Source of the DNA: Escallonia rubra
Taxonomy: Eukaryota > Streptophyta > Magnoliopsida > Escalloniales > Escalloniaceae
Assembly: GCA_033065855.1 (NCBI GenBank)
Contig: JAVXUO010000788.1
Coordinates: forward strand, 1 to 64,000
Direction: 5' to 3'
Length of the DNA: 64,000 nt
The notes below the pieces were generated by a model, which was not told the origin of the DNA, did no database searches, and saw only the letters and a program-made list of their open reading frames with translations. Shown here piece by piece: positions 12,681 through 41,045 of this stretch (its first letter is position 1; every line of letters starts with the position of its first letter). Both the position numbers and the translations under genes were made by a program.

Positions 12681-13100
12681 TTAAATACAAAAAAACGACA
12701 TTCAATGACGAACGATATTCGTCAAGAAAAGCTTTCAGATTGGCGAGAAAAACTTATATCGGCAAATAATGTTCGATACCTGGTTCTTCTACAACGCGCC
12801 GTCAAGAAAGGTCTTCCTTGACGAACTTCTAACTTTGTCGTGAAATTAAATATGCCCTGTGTTGACAAACTTCCACCTGTCAAGAAATATTGCACCTTTA
12901 ACAACGAACTGGTTTGTAGTTAGAGCTCTTAAGAATTCATCAAGAATAGTTCATGTTCGTCGACAATGAGTATATTTCTTGACGAAGTGGACTCCGTCTG
13001 CGTATTCGTCTCATTTGACAACTTAACTGCATCGTTGAAGTTATGCATTCAATGACGAAGAGGGTTGCCACTATAAGCTATTCCTTCAATGACAAATTCA
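12681..13100. mobile_element. Decayed DNA transposon end with TGACGAA motifs
   Basis: Dense inverted and direct copies of a short motif (TCAATGACGAA, TTCGTCAAGAA, CTTGACGAA, TTCGTCGACAA) at intervals of 20-60 bp. The arrangement resembles the subterminal repeats of CACTA-type elements but uses a different motif from the TTTAGCGACGG family. No clear CACTA terminus or target duplication could be found, so the class is uncertain. Confidence 0.45.
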
Positions 13101-31578: not shown

Positions 31579-33732
31579 TTACAGACGTAGGTGTCCTACT
31601 CCCTCAGCATCCTGCCTTAACAAGGTAAGGACAGGTGCAGGCGGTTGATCAATATATACATAAGTTTGTTCCTGACGTGCTCCCATTCCAGCTAAAATAT
31701 CAGCACATTTGTTGCCCTCCTTTAAGATGTGGAGGATGGTTGTTTCGGTAGACCGCATGAGAAGCCGGCAGTCCATGATCAAGCTGCTAAGAGGGTGCCA
31801 TGGATTGGGCTCTTGTGTTATCAGGTTCTTAGCCATTTCCGAATCCGTCTCTAGCACTGCTGATGTGTGTCCGTGGTCTTTGATAAACTGGAGGCCTCTG
31901 AGTATCCCCCAAAGCTCTGCTTCCAGCACGCTGCAGATGGGTAAGTGGCCCATATATCCACCAACCCAATTACCTTCACTATTTCTGGCAAGGCCTCCAA
32001 ATCCTCCTGAGTTGCCCTGTTGTTTACTGCCATCCGAGTTAATTTTGATCCTTCCTGCAAGTGGAGGAAACCACACAATTAGTCTGGGTTCAGAAGGTAT
32101 CCTTTGCTCTGATTTGGCAAATGCATTCTGAGTGTCATTTGCAAGATTCAGAGCAAAAGAGAAGGATAAGTCTTCATGGGTACGAAACCCTTCAATGCAT
32201 TCCCTGTTTCTATCCTTCCATATCTGCCACAGAACGGAGCTGAAAACATATTTCCATTGAAACCCTGCAAAATCAGCAATATTCTTATCCATAATATTCA
32301 TTTTTAGCCATTGATTCTTAGGTTGGTTGGCTGCTATGTTCATCTGCCTGATAGTAAGACATTTCCTCCACACATTACGGGCTTTGGGACAATCTCTAAG
32401 AATATGAATAGTGGTTTCCATCGCCCCGTTGCATCTTTGACAGCTGTCATTATTGGTGAGGTTTCTAATTTTCCTAAGTTCATTCGAAGGCACTCTATCC
32501 CAAAGGATGAGCCACAGGAAAAGGATGATCTTACGGGGGAGTTTTAGGGCCCAAATCCATTTCCAATCATCGCTATCAATCTGGTCCTCAAAATTGTTGA
32601 TTAAATGGTACGCACTGGCAAGGGAGAAACTTCCTTGCGGGTTAGGGGCCCAAGAAGGTTGGTCGTCCTTCCTGTTGTCCAAAGGTAGGTGTGTCCTAAT
32701 GATATCGTTTAATCTTTCAGGGCTAACACACTTTTTAATTTCATGGATATCCCATTTACCGTTAGTAATGAAGGTGGCCACTTTAGTTTCTCTATCTCTT
32801 GAGGGGTGCATCTGGGGGCCATCTAGGGGGGCATCTCCATGCCACCAATCTTTCCAAAAGCTAGTTTTCTCACCATTATTGATGATCCATTTGACTCCTT
32901 GTTTGAGGTGTGATGTTCCTTTTTGGATGCTCTTCCAAACATGCGATCCTTTTTTGCTTAGGCTCCAGTCCCTAAGCTCCTTATCTCTTATATATTTCTC
33001 ACGTATCACTCCCACCCACAGGAGTTTTTCTTTGGTGAGAAGTTTCCATCCAAGCTTAACCATGCTAGCAATGTTAACCTCTCTAGCCTTTCTGATCCCT
33101 AATCCCCCAAATCGTTGAGGGAGGCAGACATTATCCCAATTAACAAGGTGGAGCTTTTTCTTAGTGACATTGTCCCCCCACAAAAAGGCACGGTTAATTT
33201 TATCAAGTTTATCACAGATGGATATGGGAAGGGCCTGGGCTTGCATGACATAGGAAGGAATGGCACAAGTAACCGATTTGATAAGGGTTACTCTTCCGGC
33301 AAGAGAGAGGAGGTTAGTCTTCCAGCCAGACAGCCTATCCTGGACTTTTTTAATCACATGATTGTACTCCTTCTTGGACAGTCTGTTATGAATAAGGGGG
33401 AAACCAAGGTAGGTGCCCAAATTCTCCGTAAGCGGAATACCACATCTCCTGCTAAGCTCCTGGGCTTTGATCTTAGAAATGTTTTGGGAAGCAAACATTT
33501 TAGATTTATGAAAATTTATGCTTTGGCCAGAGATCTTGCAGAAGTTAGCTAATGTTTCCATAAGCAAATCACACTCTTTCTCTCCATCCTTACAAAAAAG
33601 GATTAGGTCATCCGCATAGAACAAATGGGTGATTAAGGGGCCACCCCGGGAAGCTCTAAGTCCTATCCGCTCTCTAGATCGATTGCATTGGTAGAGCATC
33701 TGGGACAACTTCTCAATACAGAGCACAAATAA
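31579..33732 (-). CDS. LINE ORF2, 3' part: RT C-terminus, zf-RVT, RNase H
   Basis: Continues ORF2 after the CACTA insertion. It starts with FVLCIEKLSQ and the reverse transcriptase active site HLFYADDLILF, then TYLGFPLIHNRLSKKEYN. The zf-RVT zinc-binding domain follows (WALKLPRKIILFLWLILWDR, then CQRCNGAMETTIHILRDCPK). It ends in an RNase H domain (KINSDGSKQQGNSGGFG, VLEAELWGILRGL, VLETDS, EGNKCADILAGMG) with the acidic catalytic residues present. About 717 codons, stop at 31579. The frame of the 5' part at 37016-38968 resumes exactly here when the CACTA and one TAA duplication are subtracted. The ATG at 33780 seen in this frame lies in CACTA sequence and is not a real start. Confidence 0.93.
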   Translation of the reverse strand, partial: LFVLCIEKLSQMLYQCNRSRERIGLRASRGGPLITHLFYADDLILFCKDGEKECDLLMETLANFCKISGQSINFHKSKMFASQNISKIKAQELSRRCGIPLTENLGTYLGFPLIHNRLSKKEYNHVIKKVQDRLSGWKTNLLSLAGRVTLIKSVTCAIPSYVMQAQALPISICDKLDKINRAFLWGDNVTKKKLHLVNWDNVCLPQRFGGLGIRKAREVNIASMVKLGWKLLTKEKLLWVGVIREKYIRDKELRDWSLSKKGSHVWKSIQKGTSHLKQGVKWIINNGEKTSFWKDWWHGDAPLDGPQMHPSRDRETKVATFITNGKWDIHEIKKCVSPERLNDIIRTHLPLDNRKDDQPSWAPNPQGSFSLASAYHLINNFEDQIDSDDWKWIWALKLPRKIILFLWLILWDRVPSNELRKIRNLTNNDSCQRCNGAMETTIHILRDCPKARNVWRKCLTIRQMNIAANQPKNQWLKMNIMDKNIADFAGFQWKYVFSSVLWQIWKDRNRECIEGFRTHEDLSFSFALNLANDTQNAFAKSEQRIPSEPRLIVWFPPLAGRIKINSDGSKQQGNSGGFGGLARNSEGNWVGGYMGHLPICSVLEAELWGILRGLQFIKDHGHTSAVLETDSEMAKNLITQEPNPWHPLSSLIMDCRLLMRSTETTILHILKEGNKCADILAGMGARQEQTYVYIDQPPAPVLTLLRQDAEGVGHLRL

Positions 33733-34015
33733 CACTACAAGAAAAGAGGGCATTAGCGACGGACTTTTAGCGACGGACACAATTCCGTCTCTAAAATATT
33801 TTTAAGCGACGGAAAACACCCGTCGGTTTAAAGTCCGTCGGTGAAAGAGGGTCCTGCCGACGGACTCTTACCGACGGGTGTTCTCCGTCGCTTACACTAT
33901 TTATAAACGGAATTATTCCGTTGGTAAAAATAACCGTCGGTGAAAGTTAATTTTACCGACGGATTTTTACCGACGGGTAAAAGTCCGTCGGTAAATTCCT
34001 TAAAAATATCAGATC
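33733..34015 (+). repeat. CACTA left subterminal repeats
   Basis: More than ten direct and inverted copies of TTTAGCGACGG / ACCGACGG-type words (33750-33995), presumed transposase-binding sites by analogy with other CACTA elements. Confidence 0.85.
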
Positions 34016-34037
34016 CCCTTCTTTTCTTTCTCCCGTT

Positions 34038-34078
<41 letters not shown>

Positions 34079-34338
34079 GGCGATTTACACTCTGTCGCTC
34101 TCTAGCTCCCGTTGCTCTCTCTCTCTCACCTGCCCCCCCCACCGCCACCGACGCCGCCACTTCCGCCCATCTTCAAAACCGATCGAAGGACCGCCGCCAC
34201 CACAACCGTCACCACCGGCCGAGTTCCCTCTGCGTTTCCCTTTGAGCCGTACAGCGCCTGTGCGCTCCTGCTCTCTCACCAGAAATTGCTGCCGTCTGTT
34301 TTGTTGTCGCCGTTTCCCCCTCTGATTTGCTGCCGCAG
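34016..34338 (+). promoter_or_regulatory. Leader exon with (CT)n and splice donor
   Basis: A (CT)n tract at 34039-34075 is followed by a GC-rich, CCGCC-rich stretch without a convincing ORF, ending CCGCAG|GTAAGG at 34338/34339, a strong splice donor. CT-rich leaders followed by a donor are common in plant 5' UTRs. The truncated CACTA at 1061-1857 has the same layout. Probably the non-coding first exon of the B3 gene. Confidence 0.6.
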
Positions 34339-36011
34339 GTAAGGTCACGGTCCTGTTTTCTCTCTTTATATTTTCTCTTTCCGTTTCTTGAGTCCATTTT
34401 GCAATTACATGTTATAATTTGGTATATTGTGTTATTCATTTTGCAATTACATGTTATAATTTGGTATATTGTGTTATTGAGTCCATTTTGCAATTACACT
34501 GAATCCTATCACATTTTTGTGTCTACATCCATCTTATATGTGGTTAAGGATCATCTACAGCATGCTATCTGCTGTTACAATTTTAGTGACATAAAATTGA
34601 GTTAAAAAGGTTTTTGACTTTTATATTACAAAAGAAATACTGGAGGATCCTTGTATCTTTGGTGCACATGAATGTAAATGCATACTCAAACAGGTAAAGA
34701 GTTTCCGTTTGTTAATCTGGAATGCAATTGATTATACGAGCAAATTCTGCGGCCTTTGATCATTTGTGACGGGACTTGCATGTTATCGCTTAGTAGCTTG
34801 ATGGTACAAAAATGGATCCCTCCTCTCAGATGTTTCGTCACTATAGCAGTAGGGTGCTCTTTTAGCTGCAATATTTGCACTATTCGCCGCTAATCTATAG
34901 CGACAAATTTTGCTGTTTTTGTCTCGCATCAAAGTATAACTGCTATAGCGGTTAGCATGAATACAAGGCGAACTTCAATGTTCTCGGTCAGATCAGGTTA
35001 CAGTATCAACGTGCCAAAAGGATAGCCCGTATTTCAGAAACCAAAGGAAATGCCATTAAACCACTCTTTCAAAGTTGCAGTTAGAAGCACAAGGTTAAGA
35101 GAACGTCATAAAAAATAAGCCTATTAACTATTTACATTCAATATGTTGACCTGACATACATTTTGGAACAAATCAAAATAGAAATTGTGACACTCGGAAT
35201 GAGACTCAGTATCACCTCTTGGAGTTCTACTGCGAGCTAATATATATGTACAATGGCAAGACTATCTGGAAAACCAACATGAATAACCACTGGCTAGTAT
35301 TCATTTACCGCCGTAGCTTAATTATATGCTTGTGATCAACATGGTCTTCACAGTTAGTGTTTCATCACTCACCCTTGATAGACATCCTTTGACATGCAGT
35401 TCAACAAAATTACCGTGTCTGACCTAAGTAGTTAACTAGAGCCTTTTAGAAACCACAATATGGCTCCTGAATTAGGATATGGTCTAATTAAGAAGTTGTG
35501 TTCTCTTTCTTTCCTTAAAGATAAACCAAGTAGGGTGCAGATATTGACCGATATGATGGAACTTTGGTGCAAAGGGCATCCTTCTTCATGTATTTACCTT
35601 GCTTGTTTTTCCCTTTGCGTAGTGGCGAAAATTACGTTCACATAAGTTTATAATGTCACCCTTTCGTCACAGTATCAAGTCAATACTGAGAATGTTCTTA
35701 GGAGGGACCCTATATATGTTGAAATTGATCTCCTTGATATGTCATTGGAATCCTTTGGAACCATTACAAAAGTTCCAGTATAAATTTGGAGCAAATTTGG
35801 CCTGGGGATTGTATTTAACGAGTAGTAAATAAGACCTAATTCTGGCCTCGGAAGTAGTGGCCAGGGACACAGGCTAGTGAAATAATAATAATTGATAGTA
35901 ACCTCCGATGGGTTTTACGTTGCATGCCACGTATACCATAAACTCTGAGCAGCTATGAAATTGATGCTTGTGGATGGAATAATCATCGATTGGTTTTTCA
36001 TGTTAAAGTAG
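34339..36011 (+). other. Presumed 5' UTR intron of the B3 gene
   Basis: AT-rich, 1.67 kb, from GTAAGG at 34339 to AAAGTAG at 36011, five bases before the B3 ATG. A 61-codon frame at 35460-35645 is not recognised and is treated as chance. Confidence 0.5.
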
Positions 36012-36016
36012 GTTAA

Positions 36017-36453
36017 ATGGCTTCTGCTTCGGTGAACAGGGACGTTTCAGTCAACAGGCATTTCTTCAAGGTCATGATGCCTGGTTTTGAGACAGAACTT
36101 GTATGTCATCCCGCTTTCTCTATGTTTTCGTGTGTGTTAAAAGTTTTATCTTTGGTTAAAAACTTACATGTCTTACTGTATTATGAATATGTTAGGCCAT
36201 ACCGGTAGCATTTTGGCGATTGCTCACCACGTTGAGATTTGAAGCAACTTTAACCAGCTGTAAGGGGTCATGGCTTGTTCGATTGAAGAAGAAGGTTGGC
36301 GAAGAGGTTCTTTGCTTCGAAGAGGGTTGGAACGAATTCGTGCAACAACATGACCTCCATCTAGGAGACTTTGTAGTCTTTCAACACATGGGGCAAATGC
36401 GTTTTCAAGTCAGCGTGTTTGATGAAAGCACTTGTGAAAAGCCTTTCCCCTAA
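36017..36453 (+). CDS. Single B3-domain protein (REM-like), two coding exons
   Basis: Exon 1 (36017-36100) encodes MASASVNRDVSVNRHFFKVM then MPGFETEL. A 95 bp intron (36101-36195) has GTATGT at the donor and TATGTTAG at the acceptor, phase 0. Exon 2 (36196-36453) encodes AIPVAFWRLLTTLRFEATL, GSWLVRLKKKVGEEVLCFEE, GWNEFVQQHDLHLGDFVVFQ and MRFQVSVFDESTCEKPFP, then TAA. The 113-residue product is essentially one complete B3 domain: FFKV start, GFETEL-IP turn, W-V core, FEEGWNEFV-HDL-GDF-VF block, V-FD end. This is the DNA-binding fold of the plant REM/VRN1-type transcription factor family. Known REM proteins usually carry one or more B3 domains plus extra sequence; here nothing else follows. There are no stops or frameshifts. 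It lies wholly inside a CACTA element, so it is either a captured gene or a gene now maintained by the transposon. Expression is not known. Confidence 0.88.
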
Positions 36454-36486
36454 TGTACATTTTGAACAATGTTGCGAACATTGACT

Positions 36487-36580
36487 ATTGATCGATGATT
36501 TTGAACAATATTGTATTATTGATCGATGATTTTGAAAAATATTGTATTATTGATCGATGATTTGTTTTAATCGATGATTT
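36487..36580 (+). repeat. Three 31 bp tandem units
   Basis: ATTGATCGATGATTTTGAA, then AATATTGTATT, occurs three times with period 31 just after the B3 stop codon, in its presumed 3' UTR. Confidence 0.85.
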
Positions 36581-36699
36581 TAGATTGTTAATCGTGCATT
36601 TGATATACTGAGATTGTTGACGGAGGATGAGACTCAATTGGTTTGAATTTTTTATTACAGGTTTGGGCATTAAAAAATAAAAATAAATTAAAAAAATGA

Positions 36700-37015
36700 C
36701 TTTAACTTTTAGCGACGGATTAATTCCGTCGCTAAATAGTTTATCCCGTCGCTAATTTTGTAAAAAGAAAATAAATTAAAGTACGTAAAACATAATTAGC
36801 GACGGATATTCCGTCGCTAATTAAGTGATAAATCCGTCGCCAAACGTTCTATATTAGACGACGGATTTTATAATTCCGTCGCAAAACTTTTAGCAACGGC
36901 CTTTTATACGACGGACTTTTAGCGACGGTAATTCCGTCGCTAAAACTTTTAGCGACGGAATATAGGTCTTTAGCGACGGGAAAATCCGTCGCTAAAGACC
37001 TTATTCCTTGTAGTG
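36700..37015 (-). repeat. CACTA right subterminal repeats
   Basis: Many copies of TTTAGCGACGG and CCGTCGCTAA in both orientations, ending in CCTTGTAGTG at 37015. Confidence 0.85.
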
Positions 37016-38968
37016 TAAATAGGGGGAAAGAGGGTCACCCTGTCTAATTCCACGTTGGGGCTTAAAGGCAGGGAGGGGGTGGCCATTCCAGAGGACCTCA
37101 AGGCTAGCTCCCGTTATCATATTCATGATGAGGTTGACCCACTTGCTAGGGAAATTAAATTCTTCCAAGACATTTTTAACAAAACTCCATCTTATTTTAT
37201 CATATGCCTTTTCAAGATCTATTTTAAAAATAAGGCCTCCTTTTTTCCCTTTTTTCTTCTTCAGCGTATGCAAGATTTCTTGGGTAACCAGGGCATTATC
37301 AATGGTGGAACGACCCGGCACAAAGCTACTCTGGGCAGGGCTAATGAGGGTAGACAAAACAGGTCTGATTCTGTTAACAAGAATTTTTCCAAGCACCTTA
37401 TAAGTCACATTCAGCAGGCTTATGGGCCGAAAATGGGAGATATTTTGGGGGATATCAATCTTGGGGATCAGGGTAATCAGGGTCCTGTTATTGTTAACAG
37501 GCATCTCCTCCTTAACAAAACAGTTTTTGATAAAACAGCAACATAAATTGCCAACAATGTCCCAGTACTTATGATAGAAAATACTGCTAATACCATCAGG
37601 GCCAGGAGCCTTCAAAGCTTTAATACTAAAGAAAGCACTTTTAATTTCCTGGTTACTTAAAGGCACCATCATATTCGCACTCTCACTCTCGGTAATTCTG
37701 GGGGAGTTGGGATCCTTCCAAATAAGGCTGTTATTCATGTCGGTTTCCTTAAAAAGGTTGGTAAAGTGATCAACAATGTGGGCTTTAAGACTAGAGACCT
37801 CAGAGATCCACACATTATCATTGTCTTTTAAAGCTAAAATTTTGTTCTTCTTCCTGCGGGCTATGGTGGCTATATGAAAAAACCTAGTATTTTTATCTCC
37901 TTGAGAGAGCCACTGCACTCTAGACTTTTGGAGCCATAGTAATTCTTCCTGAGCTAAAGTATCAATATACTGTTTTCGTAGCTCCCTTTCCAGGCACTCA
38001 AGATTGTGGGAGTGGTTTATGGCCAAAGCAGATTGTATGCCCATAAGACGCGCCCACAACCTTCTTTTTCTTCTAAAGATATTACCAAACACTTCAGAAT
38101 TCCAAATTTTAGCATTAACAGTAAATAAATCAATCGCATCTATAACATCATTTTGGTTATGCCAGGAGCTACTCACAACATCTTTGAAACTATCATTATT
38201 CAGCCAGGCCGCTTCCAATTTAAAGGGTTTAGGAGAAGAACAGAGGGGGTTTCTGAGGAGCGTACCTGAGCAATTTATAATCATAGCGCAGTGGTCGGAA
38301 GTAGTTCTAGGGAAGTTGCAGACCTGTGCTTCGGGGAAAATGACACACCACTCCGGGTTTGCCAACGCCCTATCCAGCCTTTTTTGGACATTCGCCCACC
38401 CCTGTCTACGGTCAGTCCAGGTTAGCTTAGGTCCTGTGCATCCGAGGTCGATTAATCCGCACTTGTCAATGTTTTCTCTGAATTTGCGGATACGGATGGT
38501 TTCGGTGTTGTCCCCCCTTCCTCTTCGTTCGCTGACATCCATAATATCGTTGAAATCCCCTCCAATAAGCCAGGGCAGGTTATTCCTTGACGCAAAATCA
38601 GTAACATTTTCCCACAGGAACTCTCTTTTCCTGGGGTTCGGGCTTGCGTAAACAGCGGACAGGATCCAATCTTCAAAGTCTCTGCGAGAAACAACCGCAT
38701 GAATAACCTGATTCGTAGCTTGTATGATCGATAGGCTGACTTGAGAGGAGTCCCAAAACAGCCAAATGCCTCCCATGCGGCCTTCCGGGTTAACGATACA
38801 TGAGGCGCTGTACCCCAGATTATGAAAAAAGTTTCCCATTTTCTCGTATTGGACTATAGGCTCCAGTATAGCAACCACATTAGGATTAAATCTACGCACA
38901 ATTTCCCGAAAATCATTTCGAAACTTCCCGTTACCTGCTCCACCACAATTCCAGATGTATATATTCAT
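37016..38968 (-). CDS. LINE ORF2, 5' part: endonuclease and RT N-terminus
   Basis: Starts at the ATG at 38968, which begins the apurinic-endonuclease-type domain MNIYIWNCGGAGNGKFRND. Further endonuclease motifs are LEPIV, LIGGDFNDIMDVSERRGRG and TTSDHCAMI. Reverse transcriptase follows: LITLIPKIDIPQNISHFRPI, SLLNVTYKVLGKILVNRI, AQSSFVPGRSTIDNALV, IFKIDLEKAYDKIRWSFV and QRGIRQGDPLSPYL, where the CACTA inserted. The protein resumes at 33732. An open upstream extension to 39217 overlaps ORF1 in another frame. I prefer 38968 because the conserved domain begins there and it follows the ORF1 stop by 35 bases. Together the two parts would encode roughly 1,370 residues, normal for plant L1 ORF2. Confidence 0.93.
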
Positions 38969-39002
38969 GAAATTAAGAATAGTAAGACTTGGTACAATTT
39001 CC

Positions 39003-41009
39003 TTACTGGGGATTTGTAGTATCCTTCTGATTCTGTCTTCCTCTTGAAATTGACCTCTCGCGGGGACGATCTGAGCTAGATGTACCATCATCAGCGTGTT
39101 TTCGGCTTTGTTGAAATTCATCTTCAGACGGGCTTCTTCGTTTGTCGAAAGGATTCGTACGGTATGAAGTTCTGGAGTGCCTCTGGTGACGGTTGGTGCT
39201 AACCTGTTGCGATTCATGTTGTAGACTTGGATCGGTGTGTCCTCCCTCAGCCGGACGGGGATCAGGTGGTCTGATGAGGTGGGGAGGACAAGAAGGAGGG
39301 GGGAGGAGGTAGGTGTTGGGAGGTGGCTGAAAGCTACTACTGGGGATGGCTTCGATTAGGTTAGGGCTGTTGTAGAGCATTTTGACAGGAATCTCCCTGT
39401 CGATCTCCATACCAGGCTCGGGTTCGGCAGGGTCATTTTCGACATTCCAGACGTTCCCCTCAAGGGGCCGGGTGGGGATACTGGGCGGGGATTTTTCAGT
39501 GGTGAAATCTGTTAGGTCCACAATGACCATAACATCTTGGGCTTTGTCCTTATCTTTGGTAGAATCTGAGGCTTCATTTTCGGCAAGGGCTTCCAGAACG
39601 GGCCCATCAAAGGGGGCAGGTCTGTTCGTGTGAGGGCTTGCTTTTGGGCTTTGGTCCTCACCTGAACCTCTCTTGGGGCGTCTTGCTGAAGTAGATGGGT
39701 CTTCCTCTTGTGGTTTACCTGTACTCAAAGGGGCGAATCTGTTAGAAGGGCTGCCAACCTCATTTGTCTTCCCAACTATGGGCCTGCGTCCTCTTCTCTT
39801 GGCTAGCATCCAAGGGCCAAATCCATCCGTGTCCTGTCCCGCACTTCTGTTCTCAGAATTCTCTGTGGGTCCCTTCTGTTCCAAATGAACGTTTTCTCTG
39901 GCAGAGTTGGTACCAGTCATGTCATGACGACCGTTGTGGCTTCCCCTTCCTGTGTCCGTCTTCTCCGGTGGCCTGTTCGTCGGTTCACGGCATAACTCCT
40001 TCCGATGGCCTATCCTGCCACAAAGGAAACAAAAGTTATTCAGATATTCATATTCAACTCTATATTTCCTATTTCTTAGCAAATAAGCTGGGATCAGAGG
40101 TTTTGATAGATCCATCTCAACACAAATACGTGCGTATTTCCCACGAGTAGATGTAGCTGTATTCATATCAATCTTGACCGGTTTCCCAAACTTCGTAGCA
40201 ATCTTGAATAGGACTTTTTCCTCATAGTATTCGATGGGTAATTCTGGTAGCCGTAGCCATATAGCCGATTTGGTTTCTTTGGCCTCAGAGGGCTTAAAAT
40301 CGGGTTCCCACTTCCGAACAGTCAGATAATGGTTTAGGATGATCCAGGGACCCCCACTTGAAACATGATTGTAATCTTCCGTGAAATTAAACTTAATTAA
40401 GAAGAAGCCCTCGTCAAGATCCACCAGATCAAAATCCCCTTGCAGATGCCAGAGATTCCTAAGCCTTGTAGTGAGAGCTCGGAAGCCAATAGTCTTGCCT
40501 AACAGTTTAATTATAAGGCTTGATTTCCACTGTCTTCGGATTTTCTTTAACAGACTTGGCGAGAGAGCTATTTTCGGTAGGAGAGGATCAACCGCCTCTT
40601 CATCCTCCATGTCTCCCTCTCTGGCTGCCAGCGCTAAGTCCCCATCTTCTTCGTCCATTTCTTCTTCAGAGGTTTCTTCCTCGTTGTTCTCAAAATAGAC
40701 TGCCTTAGGGACTGATACAGAGACTGCATCTCTGTACGATTTTGGCTTGTTAGGACCGAGGTTATAAGGTCTCTCATGAGCTTGGGATGTTCCTTCATCC
40801 AAATCAGAAGTGTTAGGACCTGCACCGCCCAAACCCTGTTCATGGATGTTCTTTGCCTTCTTAATACTTCTACCCACATCATCTTCTCCAATAACAAGGC
40901 TGTCTTGGAGTTGTTGCTGATCCTTCCCATTTACTGGAGACGGTGGCTGGTTGCCGTGGAGTGCGTCGTGTTCAATCTCCGGAGGTTCTGAGAGCATTTC
41001 AATTTCCAT
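39003..41009 (-). CDS. LINE ORF1: DUF4283 and CCHC zinc knuckle protein
   Basis: 668 residues. An acidic, low-complexity N-terminus is followed by a DUF4283 region at about residues 150-300 (SSLIIKLLGKTIGFRALTTR, DLVDLDEGFFLIKFNF, GPWIILNHYLTVRKWEPDF, WLRLPELPIEYYEEKVLFKI). A CCHC knuckle CFLCGRIGHRKELC (C-X2-C-X4-H-X4-C) comes next, then a long Pro/Ser/Arg-rich tail. This is the usual composition of ORF1 in plant L1-type LINEs, an RNA-binding chaperone-like partner of the ORF2 enzyme. The frame is fully open, suggesting a fairly recent insertion. The start at 41009 is the first ATG, near the inferred 5' end of the element. Confidence 0.93.
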   Translation of the reverse strand: MEIEMLSEPPEIEHDALHGNQPPSPVNGKDQQQLQDSLVIGEDDVGRSIKKAKNIHEQGLGGAGPNTSDLDEGTSQAHERPYNLGPNKPKSYRDAVSVSVPKAVYFENNEEETSEEEMDEEDGDLALAAREGDMEDEEAVDPLLPKIALSPSLLKKIRRQWKSSLIIKLLGKTIGFRALTTRLRNLWHLQGDFDLVDLDEGFFLIKFNFTEDYNHVSSGGPWIILNHYLTVRKWEPDFKPSEAKETKSAIWLRLPELPIEYYEEKVLFKIATKFGKPVKIDMNTATSTRGKYARICVEMDLSKPLIPAYLLRNRKYRVEYEYLNNFCFLCGRIGHRKELCREPTNRPPEKTDTGRGSHNGRHDMTGTNSARENVHLEQKGPTENSENRSAGQDTDGFGPWMLAKRRGRRPIVGKTNEVGSPSNRFAPLSTGKPQEEDPSTSARRPKRGSGEDQSPKASPHTNRPAPFDGPVLEALAENEASDSTKDKDKAQDVMVIVDLTDFTTEKSPPSIPTRPLEGNVWNVENDPAEPEPGMEIDREIPVKMLYNSPNLIEAIPSSSFQPPPNTYLLPPPSCPPHLIRPPDPRPAEGGHTDPSLQHESQQVSTNRHQRHSRTSYRTNPFDKRRSPSEDEFQQSRKHADDGTSSSDRPRERSISRGRQNQKDTTNPQ

Positions 41010-41045
41010 TTTTCAACAGTTTCCCTTTGACGTGAAATAGGAATT

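Follow-up and report, generated by a model that had tools for sequence, protein, structure and literature searches.

An intact, intron-containing B3 gene amplified inside a CACTA transposon family of Escallonia rubra

The CACTA elements described so far in plants offer several points of comparison. In En/Spm, the TNPD transposase frames lie within a large intron 1, between exon 1 and the exons of a DNA-binding protein (PMC2613891). Pack-TYPE elements carry gene fragments and are linked to exon shuffling, with few Pack-CACTAs in Arabidopsis (PMC8903248), and in Chenopodium the sequence captured by CACTA elements is found upstream of ORF1, in their 5' region, and is in one case an AP2 fragment of 80 bp (PMC8978399). 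The subject of this report is a CACTA element of 3,283 bp in Escallonia rubra, located at 33733-37015 of contig JAVXUO010000788.1 (assembly GCA_033065855.1), whose first 64,000 nucleotides on the forward strand form the stretch analysed here, hereafter the window. The element contains a small REM-type B3 gene with its intron. We consider it likely that this is a non-autonomous element of the Pack-CACTA type, carrying an intact and amplified B3 gene, mobilised in trans, and that the frame of the gene is kept for the benefit of the element.

The element is complete: its ends, CACTACAAG and CTTGTAGTG, are exact and so is the TAA duplication on both sides, which confirms the termini, duplication and coordinates proposed in an earlier note made from the letters of the window. 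The 17 open reading frames (ORFs) scanned in the element contain no transposase domain, and the Rfam scan gave no match reaching the gathering score. In the following list, A is the window copy, B a diverged copy found at locus L011, L026 and L028 are two other loci, and C9 is a transposase-bearing element of the same genome.

33730..33732, left target-site duplication TAA, exact
33733..33741, plus strand, 5' terminal inverted repeat CACTACAAG, exact, seen in all 20 fetched loci
33753..33994, plus strand, direct and inverted subterminal repeats of the 5' end, around TTA(G/C)CGACGG, with homology to the TNPD-bearing element in the 5' end of the latter
34012..34338, plus strand, predicted CT-rich and presumably untranslated leader exon, ending at donor CAG/GTAAGG, start unmapped
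34339..36011, plus strand, presumed intron 1; L026 and L028 carry different sequence there
36017..36100, plus strand, first coding exon of the B3 gene, codons 1-28; acceptor AG at 36010-36011
36101..36195, plus strand, phase-0 intron (intron 2), 95 nt, GT...AG, T 0.46
36196..36453, plus strand, second coding exon, comprising codons 29-113, which include the B3 core, and the stop
36482..36656, plus strand, stretch of the 3' untranslated region (UTR) related to the 5' part of C9 (about bases 1385-1708)
36648..36649, approximate internal-deletion junction, common to A and B
36709..36995, minus strand, 3' subterminal repeats, with 79.6% identity to C9 in the 3' end of the latter
37007..37015, minus strand, 3' terminal inverted repeat CTTGTAGTG, exact
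37016..37018, right target-site duplication TAA; with one copy kept, the ORF of the interrupted host element is restored

Splicing of 36017-36100 to 36196-36453 yields a protein of 113 amino acids that matches the Pfam B3 profile with 46.6 bits over positions 1-100 of 101 (cut-off 30.1 bits). An in-frame TAG at 36193-36195 terminates the unspliced frame and, since it stands directly before the last exon, the frame of that exon can be reached only via splicing or from an internal start. The last exon of the window copy alone obtains 44.5 bits over profile positions 38-100, and when the first 28 residues are shuffled, nine such sequences obtain between 43.6 and 49.6 bits, one of them above the real value; the N-terminal third of the window copy is therefore not certified by Pfam. 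The 113-residue domain with a phase-0 intron announced by the earlier note thus stands, except that Pfam does not vouch for this N-terminal third in the window copy. The diverged copy reaches 54.0 bits across profile positions 1-100. Among solved structures in the PDB, the nearest are At1g16640 (E 3e-4), which we take to be a REM protein, and VRN1 (E 0.06), and the first 60 residues searched against the PDB give no B3 match and one chance match. The search for protein relatives returned five candidates, none with E <= 0.001, and the viral and prokaryote contigs searched yielded no relative; all these collections apparently hold few or no plant sequences.

The leader has a GC content of 0.59 and a C content of 0.43, versus a GC content of 0.37 downstream, and its splice donor is retained in 18/18 aligned copies of the window type. 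The acceptor sits 5 nt before the ATG in a context common to the diverged copies and to L028. Leader bases up to about 34197 are homologous to C9, the splice-donor end lying outside the match, and because of this homology the early leader is transposon DNA and not DNA of the donor gene; of the CT-rich leader exon predicted in the earlier note, the first part belongs to the transposon. Intron 1 also contains an exact tandem duplication of 42 bp (34395-34478).

The 566-Mb genome that contains the window was searched for other copies of the gene. With the B3 gene as DNA query, 1,262 loose candidates were obtained and 40 were scored, the window copy included: all are 99-100% identical across the full 437 nt and the B3 frame is open in 40/40. 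With the last exon of the diverged copy as protein query, 150 of 1,427 loose candidates were scored, the exon being free of stops in 131 and interrupted by a stop in 19. Both searches favour the most similar copies and the intact fraction is thereby biased upward. Twenty loci of 7 kb were read. Both CACTA ends are exact in 19 of them, L009 having no exact 3' end; the 3-bp duplication matches in 18, being one base off in L024 and indeterminable in L009; and the lengths of the elements range from 2,575 to 3,509 bp. Host-like and interrupted by an intron, the B3 gene could be taken for part of a host REM locus hit by CACTA insertions and mistaken for cargo, but in 18/20 loci it lies between complete CACTA ends flanked by matching duplications, which refutes this explanation and leaves it practically no chance. 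The mobile element with an intact, intron-containing B3 gene that the earlier note proposed is thus found in many copies and not in a single one, the 40 near-identical ones being accompanied by more diverged ones.

Measured against their consensus, 18 aligned elements have diverged by about 0.2% over the greater part of intron 1, by 0.13-0.18% in the gene and by 0.7-1.2% in the leader and the subterminal regions, with gaps up to 5.7%; this low divergence is the signature of a recent burst. CpG decay, considered as a trace of methylation, accounts for merely 5 of the 56 changes in the 5' subterminal part. In total 101 copies were gathered and 99 aligned, L107 and L062 being left out for indels. 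Among the aligned copies, five have a stop, one a frameshift, one a lost start and two a changed donor, these last carrying AT instead of the GT of intron 2, whose GT and AG are retained in the other 97; codons 1-109 are unbroken in 90/101 copies.

The diverged copy of L011 lies beside a younger copy and is 90.8% identical over 424 nt, with an open frame, a GT-AG intron and the same acceptor as the window copy. In L026 and L028 intron 1 and the end of the leader differ and the B3 gene is the same; L028 retains the acceptor sequence and L026 has at that place a T-run ending in AG. The B3 elements form at least two subfamilies, and probably three.

The relation of these elements to a transposase source is provided by C9, the one member read of a group with 761-amino-acid frames that is described below. 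It is 9,947 bp long, flanked by an ATG/ATG duplication, and encodes TNPD in a frame of 761 amino acids with the domains Transpos_assoc, Transposase_21 (286.8 bits), DUF4218 and DUF4216; a later frame has a weak Transposase_24 match of 17.7 bits, below the cut-off of 28.7, and the designation of a second gene relies on this sub-threshold match and on its place after TNPD. The 5' end and early leader of C9 are 70.5% identical to element bases 1-465 of the window copy (E 7e-78), and the 5' end and early CT leader 89-91% identical to L026, while its 3' end, aligned over 309 columns, agrees with the window copy at 79.6% (E 2e-71). No B3 was found in the 9,947 bp of C9. Past the B3 stop, the sequence of the window copy follows the 5' part of C9 (bases 1348-1709) and then jumps to C9 base 9536 onward, and because this junction is common to A and B, the two copies diverged after the deletion. 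From these alignments, the B3 element derives by internal deletion from a CACTA element with TNPD, in which the B3 gene occupied the 5' part, before TNPD; a C9-type element is the likely transposase donor. A second TNPD element (875-amino-acid group) shows no match to the B3 element within the 8 kb read. The search of the genome for Transposase_21 gave 150 scored matches out of 2,228 candidates; among these 150, at least 38 share a score of 290.3 bits and 28 of the latter have the 761-amino-acid frame; the 38 fall on contigs no further than C244 of 3,222, from which a larger, recently active family may be supposed. Several transposase families show repeated identical scores and long open frames (G000; L112:1316 to L110:3762). 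Six B3-TNPD pairs lie less than 20 kb apart, start to start, among the scored places: on opposite strands in C161 (4.7 kb), C55 (5.1 kb) and C2586 (17 kb), and on the same strand in C3080 (10.0 kb), C2914 and C77 (18-20 kb). No pair is compatible with a single element of the C9 kind.

The age of the insertion determines what can be deduced from the window copy. The element interrupts a long interspersed nuclear element (LINE), whose second ORF is the following feature.

31579..39355, minus strand, host LINE ORF2 (endonuclease, reverse transcriptase, zf-RVT, RVT_3), interrupted by the CACTA element

When the LINE flanks are joined with a single TAA, an ORF of 1,496 amino acids is obtained that runs through GDPLSPYLFVL. 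Both ORFs of the LINE (31579-41012) are open, ORF1 with 669 amino acids and DUF4283, and ORF2 across the insertion, so the LINE itself is a recent arrival; and because 6.5 kb of surrounding LINE frames are open, the CACTA insertion is recent as well. At this age, an unselected B3 frame of 342 nt in the window copy would still be intact with a probability of at least 0.79-0.85. Since the LINE frames date the insertion as recent, the intactness of the window copy says little and other copies are needed; the intactness which the earlier note had found unusual is to be expected of one copy.

The comparison of A with B extends over a longer divergence. Codons 1-109 (327 nt) differ by 33 substitutions, without indel or stop, versus 83 substitutions and 11 indel events in the 3' non-coding sequence (554 aligned bases), the 3' UTR showing 18% divergence and 8 indel events. 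The absence of coding indels has a probability P of 0.0015, or 0.045 using the 3' subterminal rate alone, and the substitutions (33/327 coding versus 83/554 non-coding) differ with p 0.039. In a tree of the 99 copies, the internal branches, defined as those leading to at least three copies, carry 25 nonsynonymous (N) and 17 synonymous (S) changes and no nonsense change (omega, the ratio of the two rates, 0.56, p 0.048). The terminal branches carry 148 N, 63 S and 4 nonsense changes (omega 0.89), their N and nonsense counts being lowered by the choice of copies by protein similarity. The ratio near 1 that the earlier note named as speaking against its reading is thus not what the internal branches display, although the indication is weak, the contrast of N/S between internal and terminal branches giving p 0.20.

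These results have to be weighed against another explanation, in which the B3 gene was captured intact and is a useless passenger, a few source copies having stayed intact while bursts of transposition outran decay. It is possible, at somewhat less than an even chance in our estimation, and a number of observations speak for it or against the reading favoured here. A single intact copy is expected without selection, and the young copies, about 0.2% apart in most of intron 1, vary neutrally (N 15, S 6, p 0.54). The contrast between internal and terminal branches reaches p 0.11 when the two-copy branches (7 N, 6 S and 1 nonsense) are added, and it was p 0.041 in the first 59 copies (L060 and L062 left out) and weakened with more copies. 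That no nonsense change is present among the 42 internal changes has a chance probability of about 0.17, and the two-copy branches do contain one. Intron 2 differs between A and B at 6/95 positions versus 33/327 for the coding sequence (p 0.32), and since the intron has thus changed no more than the coding part, a constraint on the protein is not proven. The last codons of A and B are distinguished by an in-frame indel of 3 nt and a changed stop. In L026 and L028, the intact B3 gene is preceded at a distance of 107 nt by a second gene start, which stops after six codons and makes a possible upstream reading frame. The choice of copies by similarity over-represents intact frames. Finally, B3 and TNPD were not found in one C9-like element among the 190 scored B3 and 150 scored TNPD places, which are the smaller part of the candidates, so that transposase-bearing elements with B3 may exist among the others. 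The passenger explanation is opposed by codons 1-109, which crossed the A-B split without indel or stop, and by the internal omega of 0.56. All in all, the sequence comparisons incline us slightly to the opinion that the B3 frame has been kept by selection on the element, and that a DNA-binding gene is probably, not certainly, maintained.

The mechanism we propose combines these elements. A CACTA ancestor with TNPD would have captured a small REM-type B3 gene, inserted behind its leader and in front of the transposase region, and this region would then have been lost by internal deletion. The shortened element would have retained both ends, the CT-rich leader, the splice acceptor and the B3 gene. 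It would have been moved in trans by relatives that encode a transposase, in all likelihood those of the 761-amino-acid TNPD family, and it has reached high copy number, its subfamilies being at least two and probably three. The element's own promoter would drive a leader-spliced mRNA encoding a single-B3 protein of 113-116 amino acids, and the frame would be kept because this protein was of use to the element or to related elements of its family, be it through binding of DNA at the element or through competition with host REM factors. One could also imagine that the B3 protein is the element's own binder of subterminal repeats, occupying the place of TnpA in En/Spm. The gene model partly parallels that of En/Spm, the leader exon and long first intron of B3 resembling the arrangement for TnpA, and from one CACTA family to another the TnpA-type proteins have little sequence in common (PMC2613891). 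Nevertheless, C9 lacks B3 and carries different frames behind TNPD, including that with the weak Transposase_24 match, and the B3 elements have no TNPD and would hence depend on a partner anyway, so that such a substitution seems unlikely to us.

The motif TTAGCGACGG (at most one mismatch) occurs at 35 sites in the window versus 1.5 expected, 22 of them in the B3 element, 12 in a second CACTA end (1506-1836) and 1 elsewhere. This second end occupies 1-1856 of the window on the minus strand, with the terminal inverted repeat CACCACAAG and the same subterminal motif followed by a CT-rich stretch; no other end of it was found before the edge of the window, and its visible part has no similarity to B3. 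In L011 (5994-6677, minus strand), a CACTA 5' end and a CT-rich stretch precede a leucine-rich-repeat coding stretch (LRR_14, 79 bits), which lies directly past the CACTA 5' end at base 12746 of the reverse-complemented L011+L029+L030 stretch and may be a further gene captured by a related element.

VANDAL elements belong to another transposon superfamily than CACTA. Their anti-silencing protein VANC binds the transposon's own non-coding repeats (PMC10398659), and a parallel role may be conceived for the B3 protein, which is a different protein. In Arabidopsis, the REM proteins VDD, VAL, REM12 and REM13 act with GDE1 and Pol IV, and two-B3 REM proteins bind repeated motifs and recruit Pol IV for silencing RNAs (PMC12270911). 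By analogy, a mobile single-B3 protein might be an anti-silencing decoy that binds or blocks such repeats or pairs with host REMs, a suggestion to which we accord little probability. Equally doubtful is its extension, in which a host silencing reader would have been domesticated and the whole CACTA family, TNPD donors included, would be protected. The REM motifs AAGCGGAT and TTTTGCTTAT are unenriched in the window, with no listed near-match within the subterminal repeats, and the REMs that read motif 1 have two B3 domains (PMC12270911), whereas the protein of the element has a single one, closest among solved structures to At1g16640.

In conclusion, our observations bring together features of several known systems. 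Among the titles and abstract openings listed for CACTA or Pack-MULE elements with B3 domains, and for captured genes, we found no report of a CACTA-captured B3 gene. With En/Spm, Tam1 and Tgmt* (PMC2613891), the element shares CACTA ends and subterminal repeats; unlike these autonomous elements, which encode TNPD and a second DNA-binding protein, it is non-autonomous and its B3 is not TnpA. The Chenopodium elements (PMC8978399) resemble it by a capture ahead of the transposase and, in one case, by a transcription-factor gene as source, with fragments there and a complete gene here. With Pack-CACTA and Pack-TYPE elements (PMC8903248, PMC13317346) it has in common non-autonomous CACTA ends, duplications and coding DNA that in our case is presumably of host origin. 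In the papers cited, the plant genes caught by CACTA elements are mainly described as fragments; here a complete, uninterrupted DNA-binding gene is present at high copy number, and its frame survived the divergence of the subfamilies and persisted while the family diversified after the loss of the transposase. If the protein is made, a mobile gene resembling that of a transcription factor is present many times over in the plant. Could transposons capture the very readers of silencing for their own use? The link between REM proteins and RNA-directed DNA methylation (PMC12270911) makes this question testable.

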